Below the pieces are notes generated by a model. It was given only the letters and a program-made list of their open reading frames with translations, did no database searches and was not told the origin of the DNA. A DNA stretch of 39,370 nucleotides from the IMG/VR virus record IMGVR_UViG_3300048837_002250, positions 1 through 39,370 of that record; one strand, 5' to 3'. Both the position numbers and the translations under genes were made by a program. This DNA comes from a virus. This document shows positions 8,426 to 19,500 of the stretch, in pieces (the first letter of the stretch is position 1; every line of letters begins with the position of its first letter).

Positions 8426-9853
8426 GTGAATACATGTCTGCCGAACGCGAACGTGACGCGCTGGCTCGCGACGGAAGCAGGCTTCATCGAGGGGGTGTTT
8501 CACTGGGAAGGACAGCCGATACAGCTTGAGGCCTACCAGTTGGCCTTCCTGCGGAACAGTAAGCGCTTCCGTTGGGTCACAAAGAGCCGCCAGGTGGGCT
8601 TCTCGTTCCTGTTCGCGCTCGAGGCGCTTGCACGCTGCCACCTGCGACAGGGACATACCTCCATCTTCGTCAGCTATAACCAAGCGGACGCGACGGAGAA
8701 GATTGTCACCGCGAGACAGCTCTACGAGGAGATGCCGAACGCGTACAAGAAGCGGCTCGTCATCGACTCGCGTACGGAGCTGGCGTTCGAGTCGAACCGT
8801 CCTCACGGAGGGCTCTCACGCATTATCTCGGTGCCTTCAAAGCCGCCCCGCGGTAGGCGCGGAGACCTCTATCTGGACGAGCTTGCACACTACGTAGACG
8901 CGTATTCTGTCTACTCCGGTTCCACCGCGCTCATTCTGCGAACCAACGGTCAGCTCACTGGGTGCTCAACCCCACTCGGTCGTCGCGGTATCTTCTGGGA
9001 GATTGCGAAGGAGGAACTGCGCAAGTACCCGCACCACAGCAAGCAGGTGGTGCCCTGGTGGCTGTGCCGATTCTTCTGCACCGATGTGCCGCGTGCAGCG
9101 ATTGAAGCACCAAGGATGCCGTCAGCGGAGGCCGTTGAGCGCTTTGGGACCGAGGGGATTCGCGAGCAGTTCGAGACGCTTCCGCTCGACGACTTCCGGC
9201 AGGAGTTCGAGGCGGATTTCGTCGACTCGACCTACAGCTACTTCCCTCATGAAGTCATCTTACCTTGCACCGACCCCGACCTAGACACTGCAGAGGACTT
9301 TACCGACATTCCCATCCCGGAGGGCCGGATTGTCGCCGGCTTCGACGTAGGACGCACGCGCGATCACTCTGAGCTCGCTGTCTTTGAGGAGCGCGGGCAA
9401 CGGCGCATTTGCCGCATGCTGCGTCGCTACGAGCAGGTTCCGTTCGCCGAGCAGGAGACGGATCTGAGGCGGCTGCTCGAGCTCATGCCTGTTGCCCGCT
9501 TGTCCATCGACGCGAGCGGCATCGGCATGAACCTCGCCGAGAACCTCAGCCGCGACTACCCGCAGGTTGTCTCGGAGACCTTCAGCAGCGAGAGCAAAGA
9601 GCGCTGGTGCACCGACTTCAAGATCCTGCTGCAACACCGCGACGTCTTACTTCCGCGACGCCGCGATCTCGTGGGGCAGATCCACAGCATCAAGCGGCGC
9701 GTGACACCTTCGGGCAAGGTCGCCTTTGAGGCAGAGCGTACCCTGCGCGAGGGGCACGCAGACCGGTTCTGGGCGATCGCGCTCGCTTGTCAGAAGGAGC
9801 GCGAGCTTCGCAACAGCGGGGGCGTACAGATTGGCGCGCGGATACTCGGGTAG
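8426..9853 (+). CDS. terL: Terminase large subunit
   Basis: A 475-residue packaging motor starting at GTG 8426 with a modest AAGAGG site. The ATPase half has a variant Walker A, KSRQVGFS (residues 53-60), and Walker B LYLDEL with Asp151 and Glu152, followed by a coupling-like GCSTPLG. The nuclease half has the RNase H-like acidic residues Asp307 (GFDVGRT), Asp362 (SIDASGIG) and Asp446 (HADRFW). The protein moves DNA into the prohead through the portal and cuts concatemers. It begins the long + strand structural operon. The ~100 bases before it are shared with the integrase start, so divergent promoters are likely there. Confidence 0.95.
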
Positions 9854-9913: not shown

Positions 9914-10219
9914 ATGAAGGGTACAAAGCGCTCGGCCGTGCCGGCACGGGCAGTTTGTGAGGAGCGCATTGTGGCTCGGAACGCAGCTGCGTTCGACTGC
10001 GACGAACGGGCCCTGCGGGAGCTCCATCGAACACTTGATTCGACCCTTTCGCGCCGACCCCTACTCTCGGTTGCTGATCCAAGTCAGCGCACGCGGTACC
10101 TGAGTGTGCTGCGCGAAGTGTCCCTGCGCGCTTGGAGCGAGGTTGAGTCGTTCGAGAGCGACACTGGAGAAGCAACGGGTCATGACCTTTCATCTCCGGC
10201 CTTGCGAGAAGCAGAATGA
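9914..10219 (+). CDS. Small unknown protein coupled to portal
   Basis: A 101-residue protein. AGGAGG sits 9 bases before ATG 9914, and its stop overlaps the portal start (ATGA at 10216), so it is probably a real translated gene. It has a central helical region (about 29-85, ELHRTLDSTL...YLSVLREVSLRAWSEVESF) with no motif I recognise. Position between large terminase and portal suggests a packaging or portal-associated helper, but nothing in the sequence proves this. Confidence 0.6.
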   Translation: MKGTKRSAVPARAVCEERIVARNAAAFDCDERALRELHRTLDSTLSRRPLLSVADPSQRTRYLSVLREVSLRAWSEVESFESDTGEATGHDLSSPALREAE

Positions 10220-12054
10220 TCGAAGATGCACCGGCGATCGCGCACCGCGTCGAAGCACTGTTCAAAGCCCACGTGGTCGGCGACGCCGTACAGCGCGCGA
10301 CTGCGCTCGCCTCTGGCGAAGACGGCACAGGTCCTTTCTCAAGCGCAGGCGCCATCACGCCGCCCTACGAGCCCGACGTGCTTTGCCACCTGTTCGAGCA
10401 CTCGAGCAGCCTGCGTCCTAACGTCGACGCGTACGTCACGAACATCGACGGATTCGGCCACCGCTACGAGCCCGCCATCGAGCTCGAAGGGGACGACGTC
10501 GACCAGCGTGTAGCGGACTCCATGCTGCTCGAGCGCGCCGCGGCACGCGAGGCGGAAGCCGACAGCGAAGATGGCGCAGAGAATATCAGCGCAGACGTGG
10601 CGGAGCCCACGGCCGAGGAAATCGCTGCACGGCGCCACGAGCTGCAGCGCCTCTCGCGCATCGAAAAGGCACGGCTCGAGACCTTCTTCGGTTTCTGCTG
10701 CCACGAGCACAGCTTCGTCGACCTGCGTCGGCGCACGCGCCAGGACCTGGAGGTCACCGGCAACGCCTACTGGGAGGTCCTGCGCGACGCGCGTGGGCGG
10801 ATTGCGCGCTTCGTATACGTACCAGCACACACCGTAAGGTTGCTCCCGCTCGATGCTGAGCCAGTTGAAGTCGAAGAGCGTGTTCGCGTGTCGCCCGTCA
10901 GCTACGAGACCGTCACCGTCGCGCGCCGCCTGCGTCGGTACGTGCAGCTCGAAGGCACCGCGTGCGTGTTCTTTCGCTCGTTCGGCGATCCGCGAATCGT
11001 GTCGCGTCGCACAGGGGCCGTCGTAGACTCGGAAGCAGCGCTCGCCGAACAGGACGGCCCCGCGCACGAACTCATCCACTTTGCGATCCACTCGCCGCGC
11101 TCGCCTTACGGTGTGCCGCGTTGGGTTGGCAACCTGCTCAGCGTGCTCGGCTCGCGATCGTCCGAAGAGGTCAACTACCTGTACTTCGAGTCGAAGTCGG
11201 TGCCGCCGCTCGCGCTCCTCGTGTCGGGCGGCAAGCTCTCCGAGTCATCGGTGCCACGCATCGAGCGGTTCATCGAGGAGAACATCAAAGGCAAGCGCAA
11301 CTTCCACCGCATTCTGATCCTCGAAGCCGAGGGTGCTGCCAACGCAAGCGAGACTGCCAAAGCGAAAATCGAGATCGTTCCCCTCACGCAGGTGCAGCAG
11401 AAAGACGGACTCTTTCAGGCGTACGACGAGCGCAACATCGACAAGGTGGGCAGCTCGTTCCGCGTGCCACGCCTTCTGCGCGGAGACAGCCGCGATCTGA
11501 ATCGCTCGACGGCGGAGGCTGCACTTCGATTTGCGGAAGATCAGGTGTTCGCGCCAGAACGTGACGAGTTCGACTTCATGATCAACCGGCGGATTTTGCC
11601 TGACATGGGGATTCGCTTCTGGCGCTTCCGCTCGCAGACACCCGTCACCCGAGATCCCGAGCGCACGAGCGACATGGTCACGCAGCTCGTCCGCGTCGGA
11701 GTGCTCACACCCGAGGAGGGGCGCATGCTTGCGAGCGACATCTTCAACCGTGAGCTTGCCAAGATCGGGGACGACTGGGTCAAACGCCCCATCACTTTGA
11801 CACTGGCGGGGGTCCAAACCCAGAGCGTTGATCTCTGGCCCGGCAGCGGACAGGGCGACGATGCGGTGACGCAGGCCAAGCGTCTCATGGCGCTGCGTGC
11901 AGCGCTCGAGAACGAAGAGCAACTGCTTGCGAAACGCCGCCTAGCGCTCGCGCGCGAGTACTCACGCGAAGAACCTGAGCGAGTCGTCGTGCCCAGCTCC
12001 GAGTTCAAAGAGTGGTTCGCGGCTGACCAAGAGCAGGGGGGCGCCCATGTGTGA
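10216..12054 (+). CDS. Portal protein, PBSX/HK97-like
   Basis: A 612-residue protein, longer than the usual 400-550. The N-terminus includes a PPYEPDVL segment and a highly charged insert (about residues 100-150). The core has the portal patterns LEVTGNAYWEVLRD, FVYVPAHTVRLLP, ELIHFAIHSPRSPYGVPRW, then the long helix region NYLYFESKSVPPLALLVSGG and the stem-like helix that follows. The portal is a 12-mer ring at one head vertex through which DNA enters and leaves. It overlaps its upstream neighbour by ATGA and its downstream neighbour by 8 bases. The C-terminal ~100 residues are helical and charged. Confidence 0.92.
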   Translation: MIEDAPAIAHRVEALFKAHVVGDAVQRATALASGEDGTGPFSSAGAITPPYEPDVLCHLFEHSSSLRPNVDAYVTNIDGFGHRYEPAIELEGDDVDQRVADSMLLERAAAREAEADSEDGAENISADVAEPTAEEIAARRHELQRLSRIEKARLETFFGFCCHEHSFVDLRRRTRQDLEVTGNAYWEVLRDARGRIARFVYVPAHTVRLLPLDAEPVEVEERVRVSPVSYETVTVARRLRRYVQLEGTACVFFRSFGDPRIVSRRTGAVVDSEAALAEQDGPAHELIHFAIHSPRSPYGVPRWVGNLLSVLGSRSSEEVNYLYFESKSVPPLALLVSGGKLSESSVPRIERFIEENIKGKRNFHRILILEAEGAANASETAKAKIEIVPLTQVQQKDGLFQAYDERNIDKVGSSFRVPRLLRGDSRDLNRSTAEAALRFAEDQVFAPERDEFDFMINRRILPDMGIRFWRFRSQTPVTRDPERTSDMVTQLVRVGVLTPEEGRMLASDIFNRELAKIGDDWVKRPITLTLAGVQTQSVDLWPGSGQGDDAVTQAKRLMALRAALENEEQLLAKRRLALAREYSREEPERVVVPSSEFKEWFAADQEQGGAHV

Positions 12055-13096
12055 TCGCCTGGTACATCTCCACGCCGCTCGAAGCGCCGCGGATGCCTTG
12101 CTCGAAAGCTACCTCTGCCTACCCGTTCGCAAGGCCATCGACACTGCAACGCCGGCTGGATTCGACCGTGCCGTGGCGCGGCTCTCCGCTGAGTTGCGAA
12201 CAGCGTCTGCGCCGACCGAGGACCAAGCCTTCCGGCGAGCGGTGGCCGCGCTCGATGTTGACTGGGGACGCACCACGCGTGAACAGCGCTCGGCCCTCGT
12301 GCGTCGTGCAGTGCAAGAAGCTGGAGCTGTGCTGCAAGCCGGCGTTGGCCCCGTCGAGGCGAAGCTCGCACCCGCCGCGCGGCAGGTCCTTCGGGCGACG
12401 AGAGACGGAGCACGCAGGTCCGGCCTGACGGTCTCCGCCGACTTCAACGCGCTCGACCGACGCATGCTCGACTACCTGCGCACCAGCGAAACAGGCTCTG
12501 TGCGGGATGCGTTCGGCAGACGGGCACAAGCACTCTCCGAGCGTGCGCGGGCGGTTGTCGCGAGCGGTCTCGAACAAGGGCTTGGTCGAGCCGAGATCGC
12601 ATCGGCGCTTGAGCGGGCAGCGACCGACACACTAAAGCAGCCGAGTCGGTTCTACTGGGAGACGGTGGCGGGCGCGTTCACCGGTCGCGCGCGCTCCTAC
12701 GGTCAGCTCTCGTCATTCGCCGAGGCCGGCATCACACGGTACCGGATCGAGGCCGTGCTCGATGAGCACACCACGCCGACGTGCAGGTTCCTCCACGGCC
12801 GGGAGTTCACGATTGCCAGCGCACTTGCGAGCTTCCGCGAAGCAGAAGAACGACCGGAGGATCTGAAGGTCATCCATCCCTGGGTGCGCGAGCGTCTCGA
12901 TGCGGAGACGGGACGTCGCCAGCTCTACGTGCGACGCGGTGAGGAGCGCGTTCCGTTAGCAGAGGAGTTGCGCTCGGGACTCGGTCGTCGCGATGATGTC
13001 GGAGAGTTTCGCGGTCTCGGCGACCCGGCTGTGCTTGGCGTGATCGCACCGCCTTTTCATGGGCTATGTCGGTCGACTCTCGTCTCAGCCGGCTGA
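12047..13096 (+). CDS. Head morphogenesis protein, SPP1 gp7/Mu gpF-like
   Basis: A 349-residue protein overlapping the portal gene by 8 bases. The first two thirds are helical. The family signature is in the C-terminal part: AVLDEHTTPTCRFLHGREF (about 237-255) and PPFHGLCRST (about 337-346), which matches the D-xTxxxC...G...PP-H-xxCR pattern of SPP1 gp7/Mu gpF minor head proteins. These bind the portal, enter the procapsid and influence DNA ejection. The conserved Cys and His could bind a metal. About 100 bases separate it from the next gene, so the operon may pause or have a new promoter there. Confidence 0.88.
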   Translation: MCDRLVHLHAARSAADALLESYLCLPVRKAIDTATPAGFDRAVARLSAELRTASAPTEDQAFRRAVAALDVDWGRTTREQRSALVRRAVQEAGAVLQAGVGPVEAKLAPAARQVLRATRDGARRSGLTVSADFNALDRRMLDYLRTSETGSVRDAFGRRAQALSERARAVVASGLEQGLGRAEIASALERAATDTLKQPSRFYWETVAGAFTGRARSYGQLSSFAEAGITRYRIEAVLDEHTTPTCRFLHGREFTIASALASFREAEERPEDLKVIHPWVRERLDAETGRRQLYVRRGEERVPLAEELRSGLGRRDDVGEFRGLGDPAVLGVIAPPFHGLCRSTLVSAG

Positions 13097-13198: not shown

Positions 13199-13816
13199 AT
13201 GCACGCTCTGGTGAATCCGGCCTTCGACCAGGAGAACGCGACCTCAATGGGATGCGCTGCCCCGGGGCTTGGCGAGCACGACACCAACGCCTCATCGTTC
13301 GGCGCCTATGTTCGCGCCGTGCGAACACGCGCAGGCGTAGGGCTTACTGAGATGGCGTCGCGCGTCGGTGTGAGCCTCGGCCACTACTATCGTATTGAGT
13401 TCGACGAGAAGGCTCCCCTGGACTCGACACGCTGGGGTCCCCTGATCGAGATGGGCGCAGACGCAGCCGCGCTTGCCCGATTCGAGCAGCGTGATCGTGC
13501 AAAGCGTAAGCCGCGGGGACGTCCGCGCTCGCGCGTCGCGGGAGTCTCTCCTGGCGAACCGGGCAGCCCCAGTTGGGACACGCTCTCGTGGGAGCAAGAC
13601 GACTGGTGCTGGTACGCGGTGACTTGCCACCCCAACGGTCTGTCGCTCGAGCAGGTGGGGGCACTGCTAGGATGCGGGCCCGAACTCGTTCGTAAGATCG
13701 AACTCGAAGCGCTCGCCAAGCTCGCACTCGAACCAGGCGCTGTCGAAGCGATGGAGATCGTCGACGATCGAGACACTGAGCTCGCAATCTGGACAGTCGC
13801 GGCAAGCGAAGGCTGA
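13199..13816 (+). CDS. Hybrid regulator: XRE helix-turn-helix plus sigma-70 region-4-like domain
   Basis: A 205-residue protein with TGGAGG and AGAGG upstream of ATG 13199. Residues ~34-95 form an XRE (Cro/C1-type) HTH (FGAYVRAVRTRAG...MASRVGVSLGHYYRIE). A basic linker (KRKPRGRPRSR, about 100-113) follows. Residues ~136-177 read WYAVTCHP...LSLEQVGALLGCGPELVRKIELEALAKL, very like sigma-70 region 4, which binds the -35 element. Sigma regions 2 and 3 are absent, so it is not a complete sigma factor. Inferred role: a regulator that binds phage promoters or touches RNA polymerase, perhaps activating late genes. It is placed inside the head operon, so it would be made late or from its own promoter. 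Confidence 0.75.
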   Translation: MHALVNPAFDQENATSMGCAAPGLGEHDTNASSFGAYVRAVRTRAGVGLTEMASRVGVSLGHYYRIEFDEKAPLDSTRWGPLIEMGADAAALARFEQRDRAKRKPRGRPRSRVAGVSPGEPGSPSWDTLSWEQDDWCWYAVTCHPNGLSLEQVGALLGCGPELVRKIELEALAKLALEPGAVEAMEIVDDRDTELAIWTVAASEG

Positions 13817-14008: not shown

Positions 14009-15295
14009 TTGGCCACGCCTGCTGTCGAACGCGCACGCGCCCTGTTGACGCGCCTGCCGCTGCCAGTTGAGAAGACTCTCTTCGCGTCGCCCGCGGGGAA
14101 GAAGCGGCTTGCAAAGCGCCTCGTGGCAATGCTCCCCGCGCACGGTACTTACGTCGAGCCCTTTGCTGGGTCCGCTGCTGTGCTCTTCGCGAAGGAGCCC
14201 GCTGCACAGGAAGTCATCAGCGATGCCGATGCGGAGATTGCCGAGGCGTACAAGATTCTCAAGCGCCTCAAGCCCGAGGATATCCAGAAGCTGAACAAGC
14301 TCGACTGGCGCGGCGACAAGGCGACGTACGACAGGCTCAAGAAGATCGCGCCAACCAGTGACGTCGCGAAGCTGCACAAGTTCCTCTACTTGTCGCACTT
14401 CAGTTACGGCAAGATGCGCGGAAAGAGCTTCAGCCCGACTGCGCAGGGGGTCGAAGCGCAGATGCCTGCGCGCCTTGAGAAGCATCTGTCCCGCCTCAAG
14501 AACGTGCGCGTCTTCAGCGGAGACTACGAGCCCGTGGTGCGGAAGTTCGATGGTAAGGATACCGTCTTCTTTCTCGACCCTCCTTACACTGGCTATGACG
14601 TCAACGTCGGCGAGAAGAAGTTCGACGAGCAGCGCTTCTTCAAGATGCTGAAGTCGCTCAAGGGCAAGTTCCTCATCACCTACGGGATCCGCGGTGAGCT
14701 GCCGAAGCTCGTCAAGGACGCCGGCTTCGTGGTGAAGCAGATTCGCGTGCCCCGCACGATCGCCTCCATGCGTGGTGTCGGCGGGCCGAGCGTGCTCACG
14801 CAACTTCTGGTGTCGAACTACGACATCGCGCAAAAGGCGTATGGACCGGATGCTGACGACCTGGAGATGGTCGACTGGCCCTCCCAGGACGCGCACCGAG
14901 ATGCGTTCGCGACCACCTCCACGTTGATCAAGGGGATTGACCCCGGTGACGAGCGCTTCGTGCTCGGCGTAGTCCTAGAACCGGAGGTCGTGGATGCGCA
15001 GGGAGACATCTACTCCGCCGAGGAGATTCGCAGCGCGGCCCATCGCTTCATGGAGGACTTCCAGGGCCTTGGGCTTCAGCACCGAGAGCGCGTCAACGGC
15101 GACGTGAAGATCCTCGAGAGCTACTTGGCGCCGGATGACCTGAGCGTTGGTGGCACCGCGATCAAGAAGGGGACGTGGCTCTTCGGCGTGCGCGTGTTGT
15201 CTGATGAGCTGTGGAGCATGGTGAAGGACGGCGCCTTGTCGGGCTTCAGTATCGGCGGTACGGCGCGCAAAGTCCCTGAATCGAGCGCGGCGTAG
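14009..15295 (+). CDS. DNA adenine methylase fused to XkdF-like prohead protease
   Basis: A 428-residue protein. No ATG precedes the conserved N-terminus, so I take TTG 14009, with CGAGG about 8 bases upstream. Residues ~29-285 are a class D12 (Dam-type) N6-adenine methyltransferase: YVEPFAGSAAV (AdoMet site, 48-58) and DPPY at 190-193 (catalytic motif IV). Residues ~305-425 match the PBSX XkdF putative serine protease: FVLGVVLEPEVVDAQGD, LQHRER with His358, KKGTWLFGVRV and SGFSIGG with Ser414, the likely catalytic His and Ser. The protease normally matures the prohead, and here it sits where that gene is expected, before scaffold and capsid. One open frame covers both, with no stop or frameshift. 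A 192-base AT-richer gap precedes it and may hold a promoter. Confidence 0.85.
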   Translation: MATPAVERARALLTRLPLPVEKTLFASPAGKKRLAKRLVAMLPAHGTYVEPFAGSAAVLFAKEPAAQEVISDADAEIAEAYKILKRLKPEDIQKLNKLDWRGDKATYDRLKKIAPTSDVAKLHKFLYLSHFSYGKMRGKSFSPTAQGVEAQMPARLEKHLSRLKNVRVFSGDYEPVVRKFDGKDTVFFLDPPYTGYDVNVGEKKFDEQRFFKMLKSLKGKFLITYGIRGELPKLVKDAGFVVKQIRVPRTIASMRGVGGPSVLTQLLVSNYDIAQKAYGPDADDLEMVDWPSQDAHRDAFATTSTLIKGIDPGDERFVLGVVLEPEVVDAQGDIYSAEEIRSAAHRFMEDFQGLGLQHRERVNGDVKILESYLAPDDLSVGGTAIKKGTWLFGVRVLSDELWSMVKDGALSGFSIGGTARKVPESSAA

Positions 15296-15309: not shown

Positions 15310-16104
15310 ATGCACGGAGTCGGTATGGCGCAGGCGTCAGGCCAGGTTCATCGCCTGGTCGATATGGAAGTTCAAGAAGTAAGTCTGGTGGACCGCGCAG
15401 CCAACAAGCGCCGGTTTCTCATCGTCAAACGGAGTGAGGGAATGGGCGACAAAGGCACGAGCGATGCAGCAGACGGTCAAAGCGAGCAGGACGCCCAGCG
15501 CGACGCCGACGAAGGCGACACCGGCGACGCCGAGGGAGGTGATACGGCCGGAGCGGTCGCAGTAGCGTGTGACGCCCTCGAAGGCCTCACGCGGGCCGTG
15601 GAGCAGCTCCAAGCAGGTACCGGGCAAGGCAAGGTCATCGGCGACGTGGTGCAGGAGCTCCGCGCAGCTGCCGACCTCCTCCAGGAGCAGCTCGGCGGTG
15701 ACACGGCACCCGATGCGCCTGCGGCGGCGCCTGGCGCCACGCGTGCCGATGCGCTGGTCGCTGTTGTGGGCCAGCTCGTGTCTGAGCTACGCGCCTCACG
15801 CAAGGCAGCGCGGAGCAGGGCCGACGGCGAGGACGACGAACCTCCCGATGGCGGCAAGCCTAAGGGCAAGAGCAAGAAGGCGGATGAGCCCGAGGCACCC
15901 GCTACGGGGCTCGCGGCCATCCACGGTGAGCTGAAGAAGATCAGCTCGCATGTGGAGCAACAGGTGCGTCGCATCGACCGCCTTGAAAAGCGCGCGGGCG
16001 TCCCGAGCAGTCAGCCCGCGGGCGAGCGGCCGGGGCGTGCCCCCGCCAGCGCCTCCGACGATGTGTCGTGGCCGCTCGATCTCAATAGTCCTCGGAGCCG
16101 CTGA
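15310..16104 (+). CDS. Scaffold-like protein with XkdF-type N-terminal motif
   Basis: A protein of 264 residues from ATG 15310, or 259 from ATG 15325, which has the better GGAG spacing. Near the N-terminus VQEVSLVDRAANKRRFLIVKR-like sequence (about 22-41) resembles a segment I recall from XkdF proteins that accompanies the protease domain. The rest is acidic, alanine- and glycine-rich, with coiled-coil-like helices (about 85-130 and 200-230) and a lysine-rich KPKGKSKK patch, which suits a scaffold. Directly upstream of the major capsid gene, it is the expected position for a scaffolding protein that shapes the prohead and is removed by the protease. Confidence 0.65.
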   Translation: MHGVGMAQASGQVHRLVDMEVQEVSLVDRAANKRRFLIVKRSEGMGDKGTSDAADGQSEQDAQRDADEGDTGDAEGGDTAGAVAVACDALEGLTRAVEQLQAGTGQGKVIGDVVQELRAAADLLQEQLGGDTAPDAPAAAPGATRADALVAVVGQLVSELRASRKAARSRADGEDDEPPDGGKPKGKSKKADEPEAPATGLAAIHGELKKISSHVEQQVRRIDRLEKRAGVPSSQPAGERPGRAPASASDDVSWPLDLNSPRSR

Positions 16105-16136: not shown

Positions 16137-17075
16137 ATGGCCCACATGTCCAATCGCAGCATCCTGGAGAAAGCCGACCTCGCGCTCAGCGATCTCGTCC
16201 AGGGTGGTGGCCTGCTCAAGCCCGCCCAAGCGCAGGCTTTTCTCGAGATGGTCACCAAGCAGTCGACCTTGCTCAGGCAGGTGACGGCTGTGCCCATGAA
16301 GGCGCCCAAGCAGGAGATCCCCTTCATTGGGTTCCGCGACCGCATCTTGCGCCCGCGCCAGGAGAGCGTTGCACTCACGCAAGCGCAGCGCGTCAAGCCG
16401 AGCCTCAGCATGGTGGAGCTCGATGCGAAGGCGTTCATCGGCGAGGTGCACCTCTCCGATGAGCAGCTCGAGGATAACCTCGAAGGCGATAACCTCCGGC
16501 AGACGGTCCTACGCCTGATCGCTCAGCGCGTTGCGGTCGATATGGAGGAGATCGCGATCAACGGCGACACGCAGAGCGCCGACCCCACGCTCGCGACGCT
16601 GGATGGCATCCTGGTGCAGGCGAGAAGCCACGTCGTGGACGCAGCCGGAGCTCGCATCGACAACAACATCCTGCACGATTTACTGCGTGTCTTGCCCCAG
16701 GAGTATCGCCGCAACAAGACGGAGATGCGCTTCTACACCGGTTCGGACGCCGAGTTGCGCTACCGACGCACGCTTGCGGAGCGCCTTACCAACGTGGGCG
16801 ACAAGTTTCTGGAAGGGAACACGCCGATCACGTTCAGCGGAGTTCCGCTTGAGGAGGTTCCGCTGTTCGCCGAGAACACCGGACCTGCCAACAACCTGAC
16901 GAACATCTTACTGACTCATCCCAAGAACATTCATCTGGGTATCTGGCGTGACGTGAAGATCGAGTGGGCGCGCGACATCCGCCAGCAGGTGCTACAGATC
17001 GTGGTGAGCCTCCGGTTCGACGTCCGCCTCGCTGATGAATTGGGGACGGCCAAAGCACTTCGCGTCAGTGCGTGA
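16137..17075 (+). CDS. Major capsid protein, HK97 fold
   Basis: A 312-residue protein after a strong AAGGAG. N-terminal helices (SILEKADLALSDL...AQAFLEMV) lead to the HK97-type arm and spine patterns: LRQVTAVPMKAPKQEIPFIG, LDAKAFIGEVHLSDEQLEDN, and the long spine helix RQTVLRLIAQRVAVDMEEIAINGD. The later part contains a loop TPITFSGVPLEEVP and the closing strand IRQQVLQIVVSLRFDVRLAD, typical of prophage HK97-like shells. The protein forms the icosahedral head. Its position after protease and scaffold agrees. Confidence 0.9.
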   Translation: MAHMSNRSILEKADLALSDLVQGGGLLKPAQAQAFLEMVTKQSTLLRQVTAVPMKAPKQEIPFIGFRDRILRPRQESVALTQAQRVKPSLSMVELDAKAFIGEVHLSDEQLEDNLEGDNLRQTVLRLIAQRVAVDMEEIAINGDTQSADPTLATLDGILVQARSHVVDAAGARIDNNILHDLLRVLPQEYRRNKTEMRFYTGSDAELRYRRTLAERLTNVGDKFLEGNTPITFSGVPLEEVPLFAENTGPANNLTNILLTHPKNIHLGIWRDVKIEWARDIRQQVLQIVVSLRFDVRLADELGTAKALRVSA

Positions 17076-18625: not shown

Positions 18626-18895
18626 ATGGGATGGTTGGTGCTGGTCATGCTGGCGTTCCTTGGAGCGGTGGGCTGCAAAGGTGAAGATTGCAGCGTCGGG
18701 CAAACGCGCTGCAGCGATGTGGGGGTCGAGGTGTGCGATGGCGCAGGACACTGGGCCGAGATCGCTGACTGCCGTGAGGTGAGCGCCGAACAGCATGCAC
18801 CTTGGGCCTGCTGCGCAGTGGCTGTCGGCGACGCCAGCGACAAAGCGCTCCATGCGTGCCTGCCCGCGGACGAGTGCGTGGAGGTTGACCGATGA
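18626..18895 (+). CDS. Small cysteine-rich lipoprotein
   Basis: An 89-residue protein with GGGAG before ATG 18626. A hydrophobic signal segment (LVLVMLAFLGAVGC) ends at Cys17, an acceptable lipobox though with Ala at -3. Eight more cysteines (22, 29, 37, 49, 62, 63, 78, 84) allow four disulfides, so the product probably lies in the periplasm or on a membrane. The spacing C-x6-C-x7-C-x11-C with G..RC...GVEVC..AGHW resembles cysteine-rich segments in secreted proteins of Myxococcota. Its stop overlaps the next gene's start. Possible roles: superinfection exclusion, host surface change or a spanin-like part; no proof. Confidence 0.75.
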   Translation: MGWLVLVMLAFLGAVGCKGEDCSVGQTRCSDVGVEVCDGAGHWAEIADCREVSAEQHAPWACCAVAVGDASDKALHACLPADECVEVDR

Positions 18896-19500
18896 GCTTG
18901 AAGCACCCCAACGCTGCGTTGGTTCGCGACTTCTGGGCATTCATGACAAGGCGCTTTCGCACGCGCGCCGTCGTCAAGGCGGACGCCGTCGAGATGCGAG
19001 CCATCGGCGCCGCGCTCGATGCCATGGGCGTGGCGGACAAGCGCGATTTTATGAACCGCTTCGCCACGACCGTTGGTCGCCGAATCTACCTTCCCTTTAC
19101 ACCTGGTGAGGACACTTCGACCTGGGACTTGGCGGAACAACTGAATACCTGCGCCCACGAACACCAGCATGTGGTGCAGTACGATCGCGACGGCGCCCTG
19201 CGCTACGGCTACCGCTACCTTCGGAACGACGCCGCGCGCGCCCAGTATGAAGCCGAGGCGCGCACCACGGAGCTTGAGATTCACTTCTGGCGCTTTGGTT
19301 CCATCCCGCGCCTGGAGCTCGCCATCCAAGGGCTTGCAAGCTACTCGCTCGGTAAGAGCGATATCGCTGCGGCTCTCGCTACCCTGCGGTCGAACGCCGA
19401 GGCCGTGAAGCGAGGTGCCGTGCTCACGGAAGCCGGGCGCGTCGCCATCGACTGGCTCAACGACCACGCCCCTGAGCTTCGTCGCGTCGGCCAAGCGTAA
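18892..19500 (+). CDS. Putative zinc metallopeptidase (HExxH)
   Basis: A 202-residue protein starting in an ATGA overlap with the lipoprotein gene. NTCAHEHQHVVQY gives an HExxH zinc site: His89, Glu90, His93. A later YEAEA (about 119-123) offers Glu120 or Glu122 as third ligand, as in gluzincins. The HEHQHVVQY pattern is reminiscent of DUF4157-type zincin segments, which are common with contractile injection systems. There is no signal peptide. Together with the lipoprotein it interrupts the neck genes and looks like an inserted accessory pair. Possible roles: virion cargo, maturation protease or toxin-like effector; unproven. Confidence 0.65.
   Translation: MSLKHPNAALVRDFWAFMTRRFRTRAVVKADAVEMRAIGAALDAMGVADKRDFMNRFATTVGRRIYLPFTPGEDTSTWDLAEQLNTCAHEHQHVVQYDRDGALRYGYRYLRNDAARAQYEAEARTTELEIHFWRFGSIPRLELAIQGLASYSLGKSDIAAALATLRSNAEAVKRGAVLTEAGRVAIDWLNDHAPELRRVGQA

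Follow-up and report, generated by a model that had tools for sequence, protein, structure and literature searches.

The window analyzed here, a viral record, is 39,370 bases long and contains a run of head genes on the plus strand. These encode the terminase large subunit (8426–9853; PF17289/PF03237), a portal protein (10216–12054; PF04860, E = 4e-17), a MuF-like head protein (12047–13096; phrog_13868 and the minor head protein family phrog_115, with a sub-threshold match to PF04233), a D12 adenine methylase joined to an XkdF protease (14009–15295), a scaffold-like protein (15310–16104), and the major capsid protein (16137–17075; PF05065, E = 5.6e-6; phrog_1623, E = 8.4e-94). The fusion gene is a single open frame that starts with TTG and encodes 428 aa. 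A preliminary description had placed a methylase and a protease in this frame, assigned their motifs and candidate catalytic residues, and noted that the gene stands where a maturation protease is expected; each of these features was found as described, and the gene does lie between the portal/MuF and scaffold/major capsid genes. A helix-turn-helix protein is encoded at 13199–13816, between the MuF-like gene and the fusion, and its counterpart at a related locus (L002) is 58% identical. The Pfam match to a contractile-tail sheath in the window is weak. Within the head-tail gene run, positions 18892–19500 encode 202 aa; the product contains an HEHQH motif, has a sub-threshold match to eCIS_core (8e-4), and is possibly a zincin-like peptidase.

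Both domains of the fusion scored far above the Pfam cut-offs. The D12 class N6-adenine methyltransferase domain occupies residues 30–226 (14096–14686, plus strand; PF02086, E = 1.6e-18). Motif I, YVEPFAGSAAV, lies at residues 48–58 and DPPY at residues 190–193, and the presence of both in a Dam-type domain places the protein among the D12/Dam enzymes. E50, P51, F52, G54, S55, and the DPPY residues are invariant across 13 homologues, and in structure comparison this half matched E. coli Dam, T4 Dam, DpnM, and Mcbe1. The Dam-type adenine methylase is probably active. We looked for depletion of GATC in the window as a clue to site specificity and found 221 sites against 248 expected, which is no clear depletion. 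The window contains one TTAA against 9 expected and 17 CTAG against 34 expected.

The XkdF (Peptidase_S78_2) capsid protease domain spans residues 311–421 (14939–15271, plus strand; PF14550, E = 2.7e-29, 102 bits against a cut-off of 24). Across 60 diverse XkdF domains, P325, D329, H358, G412, and S414 do not vary; this supports the assignment of His358 and Ser414 as catalytic residues and makes Asp329 a possible third member. The PF14550 match and the catalytic residues place the domain in Peptidase_S78_2, and the location of the gene between the portal and the scaffold/major capsid genes is that of an XkdF protein; the best reading of the fusion gene is that it encodes the putative capsid maturation protease of this phage. 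A model of the protease domain built from 48 sequences had a mean pLDDT of 84.5. When it was compared by VIA-align, the best solved match among 999 aligned chains was T4 gp21 (5jbl), with an rmsd of 3.5 Å over 108 residues and a Z score of 6.9, too low to be relied on by itself; the next row had a Z score of 4.2. A search of solved structures by sequence with the protease profile gave no match, and the weak Foldseek matches to the model were led by ribosomal S6-like chains. It is likely that the protease shares the gp21 fold, which we do not regard as settled because Foldseek gave no match at E ≤ 0.001. Two BFVD entries annotated as “Zeta toxin domain containing” (A0A6J5PIT0, 700 aa, and A0A6J5KKZ6, 480 aa) also match the protease model, which suggests that they are zeta toxin-XkdF fusions.

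The methylase-protease fusion is real and is a single gene. PHROG 13242, a family that has no functional label, spans residues 4–428 (E = 1.9e-189), and this near end-to-end match indicates that a sequence family for the fused form is already established. The fusion recurs in independent records and contigs: the L002 protein is nearly equal in length, is 90% identical across the whole chain, and also starts with TTG; the L003 protein is about 60% identical and has a longer linker; and 13 full-length homologues with a single methylase align with the window fusion. These full-length homologues exclude the assembly error or hidden stop that the preliminary description had named as grounds for refuting the fusion. 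In a comparison of the window with L002, dN/dS was 0.054 in the methylase, 0.351 in the linker, and 0.055 in the protease. Both halves are thus under strong purifying selection whereas the linker drifts, and both activities appear to be kept. Conservation and the dN/dS values also exclude a chance join of two genes. Among phage and plasmid records we found no match to the whole fusion covering 80% of the query, and a scan of genome contigs found only a distant D12 gene. A structure model of the full chain was of low confidence (mean pLDDT 60).

The scaffold-like protein carries an N-terminal motif, EVSLVDRAANKRRFLIVKR (residues 23–41), that is common to most downstream genes of XkdF loci and that is matched by positions 4–32 of phrog_3017 (head maturation protease). 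A VSLVD-type motif (EVSLVDRAANKRRFL in the window) was present at the N terminus of the next gene in 67 of 79 called cases. A similar motif starts the protease protein itself in Lactococcus phage 28201, whereas here it lies on the next gene, and PHROG 3017 unites both parts, the VSLVD-type motif and the protease. The scaffold-like protein is a probable substrate of the protease.

The linker (14834–14932, plus strand) is flanked by K276 and K308, both of which are invariant in the 13 homologues. In the protease model, K308 lies in a low-confidence, disordered, strandless stretch before the first strand of the protease. It fits the pattern [VLI]-x-K-[A/S], with G309 as the following residue, and we predict K308-G309 to be an auto-cleavage site. 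Visual inspection of linkers and scaffolds first drew attention to the lysine motif, which was tested afterwards. In 30 cargo proteins, phi-x-K-[AS] was present at 1.1 times expectation inside recognized domains, which is the chance level, and at 2.6 times between them. Enrichment was 2.8-fold in 31 scaffold representatives and 3.4-fold in the next downstream ORFs, which are mostly major capsid genes; controls with R, E, or the reversed motif in the scaffold and downstream sets were nearer 1. We then placed each of the 20 residues at the K position in held-out inter-domain sequence that omitted the 60 residues before the protease: K alone was clearly enriched (2.44-fold; z = 8.6, a value inflated by related sequences), and V/L/I/T were favored at P3 and A/G at P2. 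Because upstream portal/MuF-type ORFs were also enriched (2.2-fold), the signal may in part reflect a general property of these virion proteins. The major capsid protein of the window has a candidate cleavage site at SILEK12-A13, and no strict match to phi-x-K-[AGST] was found in the scaffold-like protein of the window. Overall, the predicted specificity of cleavage is [VLI]-x-K↓A/S. T4 gp21 cuts after glutamate, in contrast to this predicted lysine code, and to our knowledge it carries no enzyme cargo.

We scanned viral contigs with an XkdF alignment, which gave at least 567 relatives, and examined the best 80. At least 100 aa of other sequence preceded the protease in 76 of these 80 closest loci, and at least one D12 domain was present in 39 of the 77 distinct XkdF proteins; because the loci were chosen as the nearest to the protease of the window, these cargo fractions are not prevalences. 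The preceding sequence ranged from 100 to more than 1300 aa, with some lengths being upper bounds (where start codons are uncertain) and others lower bounds (where frames run off the contig), and in 77 of 80 no more than 34 aa followed the protease. Cargo recognized by Pfam before XkdF comprised one to four D12 stretches, ATP-dependent DNA ligase, InPase, and Tad3, among others, and some relatives had up to five detected domain stretches in addition to the protease. The rest of the 77 carried ligase, InPase, or Tad3, had none of the four modeled cargo types, or had almost no extension; 24 distinct proteins had an extension of at least 100 aa with none of the four. InPase has further matches in PHROG, to families labeled DarB-like antirestriction and minor head protein. 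Tad3, a Thoeris inhibitor, scored above the Pfam cut-off at two loci. At L055 (2–4348) it is found with four D12 stretches, and at L085 (2090–4330) with InPase, in each case within a polyprotein that ends in the XkdF protease. Most of the cultured XkdF genes that we inspected are stand-alone, and the isolated Arthrobacter phages Ottawa and Shrooms encode a 2H phosphoesterase-XkdF fusion. The 542-aa “prohead protease” of HHTV-2, considered as a cultured cargo fusion, instead resembles a protease joined to a scaffold.

The surroundings of the gene are also conserved. A portal or MuF homologue lay upstream in 46 of the 57 loci with enough flanking sequence, and a major capsid homologue lay downstream in 65 of 68; at 26 loci the stop codon of the protease gene overlapped the next start by 4 nt. 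The order across loci is portal-MuF, cargo-protease, scaffold, major capsid. At L006 (1691–3384), the portal gene is followed immediately by two separate genes for D12 methylases, and an XkdF match is absent. Such adjacency, and the fact that both genes are common in phages, would allow neighboring genes to become joined by loss of a stop codon with no functional linkage. We regard an incidental fusion of this kind as highly improbable, since the fused form persists in homologues with about 60% identity and with many kinds of cargo, the protease is usually the last domain of the chain, and invariant lysines flank the linker. It is also doubtful that the methylase half serves the protease as a DNA-binding or gating module, for example by keeping it close to where packaging occurs or by delaying its activation, with methyl transfer being secondary. 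A single chain in a single head slot would suit such a role, and D12 proteins bind DNA. However, the cargo varies (methylase, ligase, Tad3) while the protease stays constant, the protease is alone in many phages, and the active-site motifs of the methylase are invariant; we therefore give gating only a small chance.

The reading that we favor, with a probability of about 0.6, is that the capsid protease loads its fused cargo into the head and frees it in the prohead, and that the cargo is then packaged and injected. The fusion would enter the prohead by way of its protease, together with scaffold and capsid proteins. After activation, the protease would cut after lysine ([VLI]-x-K↓A/S/G) in the scaffold, in the N termini of the capsid proteins, and in its own linker (here K308↓G309), and the last of these cuts would free a methylase of about 33 kDa inside the head. 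The free enzyme would be packaged together with the genome and, after ejection into the next host, would most likely modify the incoming DNA against restriction. The strongest argument for this route is that Tad3 or a 2H enzyme would be of little gain to late head-module genes unless it served the next infection, and Tad3 in this slot seems useful mainly at the start of that infection. An obstacle to this reading is that a globular enzyme of 33 kDa would have to travel through the tail tube. The preliminary description had tentatively proposed this route for the methylase, and the comparative evidence (varied cargo in the slot, including Tad3; the head module; conserved domains around a drifting linker; and the candidate motif) lends the route partial support and favors it, while catalysis, prohead entry, cleavage, packaging, injection, and protection are steps that we infer. 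We consider the odds even that the scheme holds more broadly, with XkdF proteases being a modular cargo-loading device in which Dam methylases, Tad3, 2H phosphoesterase, and DNA ligase are exchanged in one N-terminal slot, carried into the prohead, and each freed at [VLI]-x-K↓A/S between domains.

Two other explanations keep the methylase as a working enzyme. It may act in the producing cell or the prohead, marking progeny DNA before or during packaging, in which case the fusion would only tie late expression and location to head assembly and injection would be unneeded. The methylase motifs are intact, and an enzyme expressed late would mark progeny genomes. Marking of the genome is not a role that suits Tad3, 2H phosphoesterase, InPase, or ligase in the same slot, nor would it need fusion to a self-cleaving capsid protease, and many phages keep a separate dam gene; we consider this explanation unlikely, though worth keeping in view. 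Alternatively, the injected methylase may act mainly on the host chromosome, through epigenetic takeover or toxicity, and not in protection of phage DNA. Injected enzymes such as T4 Alt do hit host targets (PMC5512222), but cargo such as Tad3 and a repair-type ligase points to surviving host defenses and not to takeover, which leaves a primary role on the chromosome improbable. Loading of the methylase for protection of the incoming DNA thus remains our preferred interpretation.

Polyvalent proteins with a C-terminal assemblin-like peptidase have been known since 2017, and the methylase-XkdF fusion is a variant of them. Iyer et al. (2017; PMC5512222) reported that the assemblin-like peptidase of a polyvalent protein is always C-terminal and is probably what processes the chain. 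The proteins described there resemble the XkdF fusions in combining disparate enzyme domains with a C-terminal virion-assembly peptidase, in their late gene contexts in phages, and in their predicted injection; the fusion in the window has two functionally disparate domains in a phage late-gene context and in this respect falls within the class. It differs in that the XkdF proteins are often compact two-domain methylase-protease chains, occupy a fixed slot between the portal-MuF and scaffold genes, and have a predicted K↓A/S code. A later survey (PMC9503650) describes Nudix domains fused to a capsid-processing serine peptidase and reads them as packaged and injected. There, as here, fusion to a head protein (MuF, portal, or capsid peptidase, joined to Nudix, ART, or 2H domains) would be a loading route; the differences are that the cargo here is a Dam methylase and that the carrier protease could also release it. 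The accessible parts of these two papers (PMC5512222 and PMC9503650) make no mention that we could find of a methylase paired with XkdF, of the fixed slot, of Tad3 as cargo, or of a cleavage code based on lysine, and a search of the literature available to us for papers on XkdF-methylase fusions or Tad3 found none.

A precedent for the packaging of antirestriction proteins is phage P1, in which DarB is packaged in the virion and DarA is cleaved by the prohead protease (PMC9024508, PMC12810830). P1 also ties a methylase-domain protein to head assembly, but there the genes are separate, DarB has a targeting signal at its N terminus, and an SNF2-type helicase is present, whereas in the fusion the protease itself would be the carrier. 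Pfam finds only D12 and XkdF in the 428-aa chain, and no SNF2-type helicase of the DarB kind. The giant phage SPN3US is a further precedent, in that its head proteins are matured by proteolysis and some of them are ejection proteins (PMC10052503). Stand-alone XkdF proteases (Lactococcus 28201, PAK_P3, ICP1, and others) belong to the same family as the protease of the window and share its position before the scaffold and capsid genes, but have no N-terminal cargo.

The fusion suggests that a phage may have a built-in route for placing protective proteins, along with its DNA, in the virus particle, and related phages put other counter-defense enzymes in the same spot. If this is true, the N-terminal extensions of XkdF proteins would be a readable catalogue of the proteins injected at the first moment of infection, so that the unrecognized cargo domains would become candidates for counter-defense functions, and the loading and release of head proteins by phages would follow a simple rule that can be tested. 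The fusions also bear on annotation, which is misled by XkdF proteases that are mislabeled: many stand-alone members are recorded as “DNA methyltransferase” in public phage records, a label that has probably spread from true fusions. We considered the matches with this label in cultured phages as further fusions, and those inspected were proteases of 134–210 aa or a 349-aa protease-scaffold protein, without a methylase. KC862299.1, MF893340.1, NC_018088.1, NC_052662.1, and KX456206.1 (L008, L011, L014, L016, and L010, respectively) each contain a stand-alone XkdF protein that lacks a methylase domain and is labeled “DNA methyltransferase” or “similar to putative methyltransferase.”
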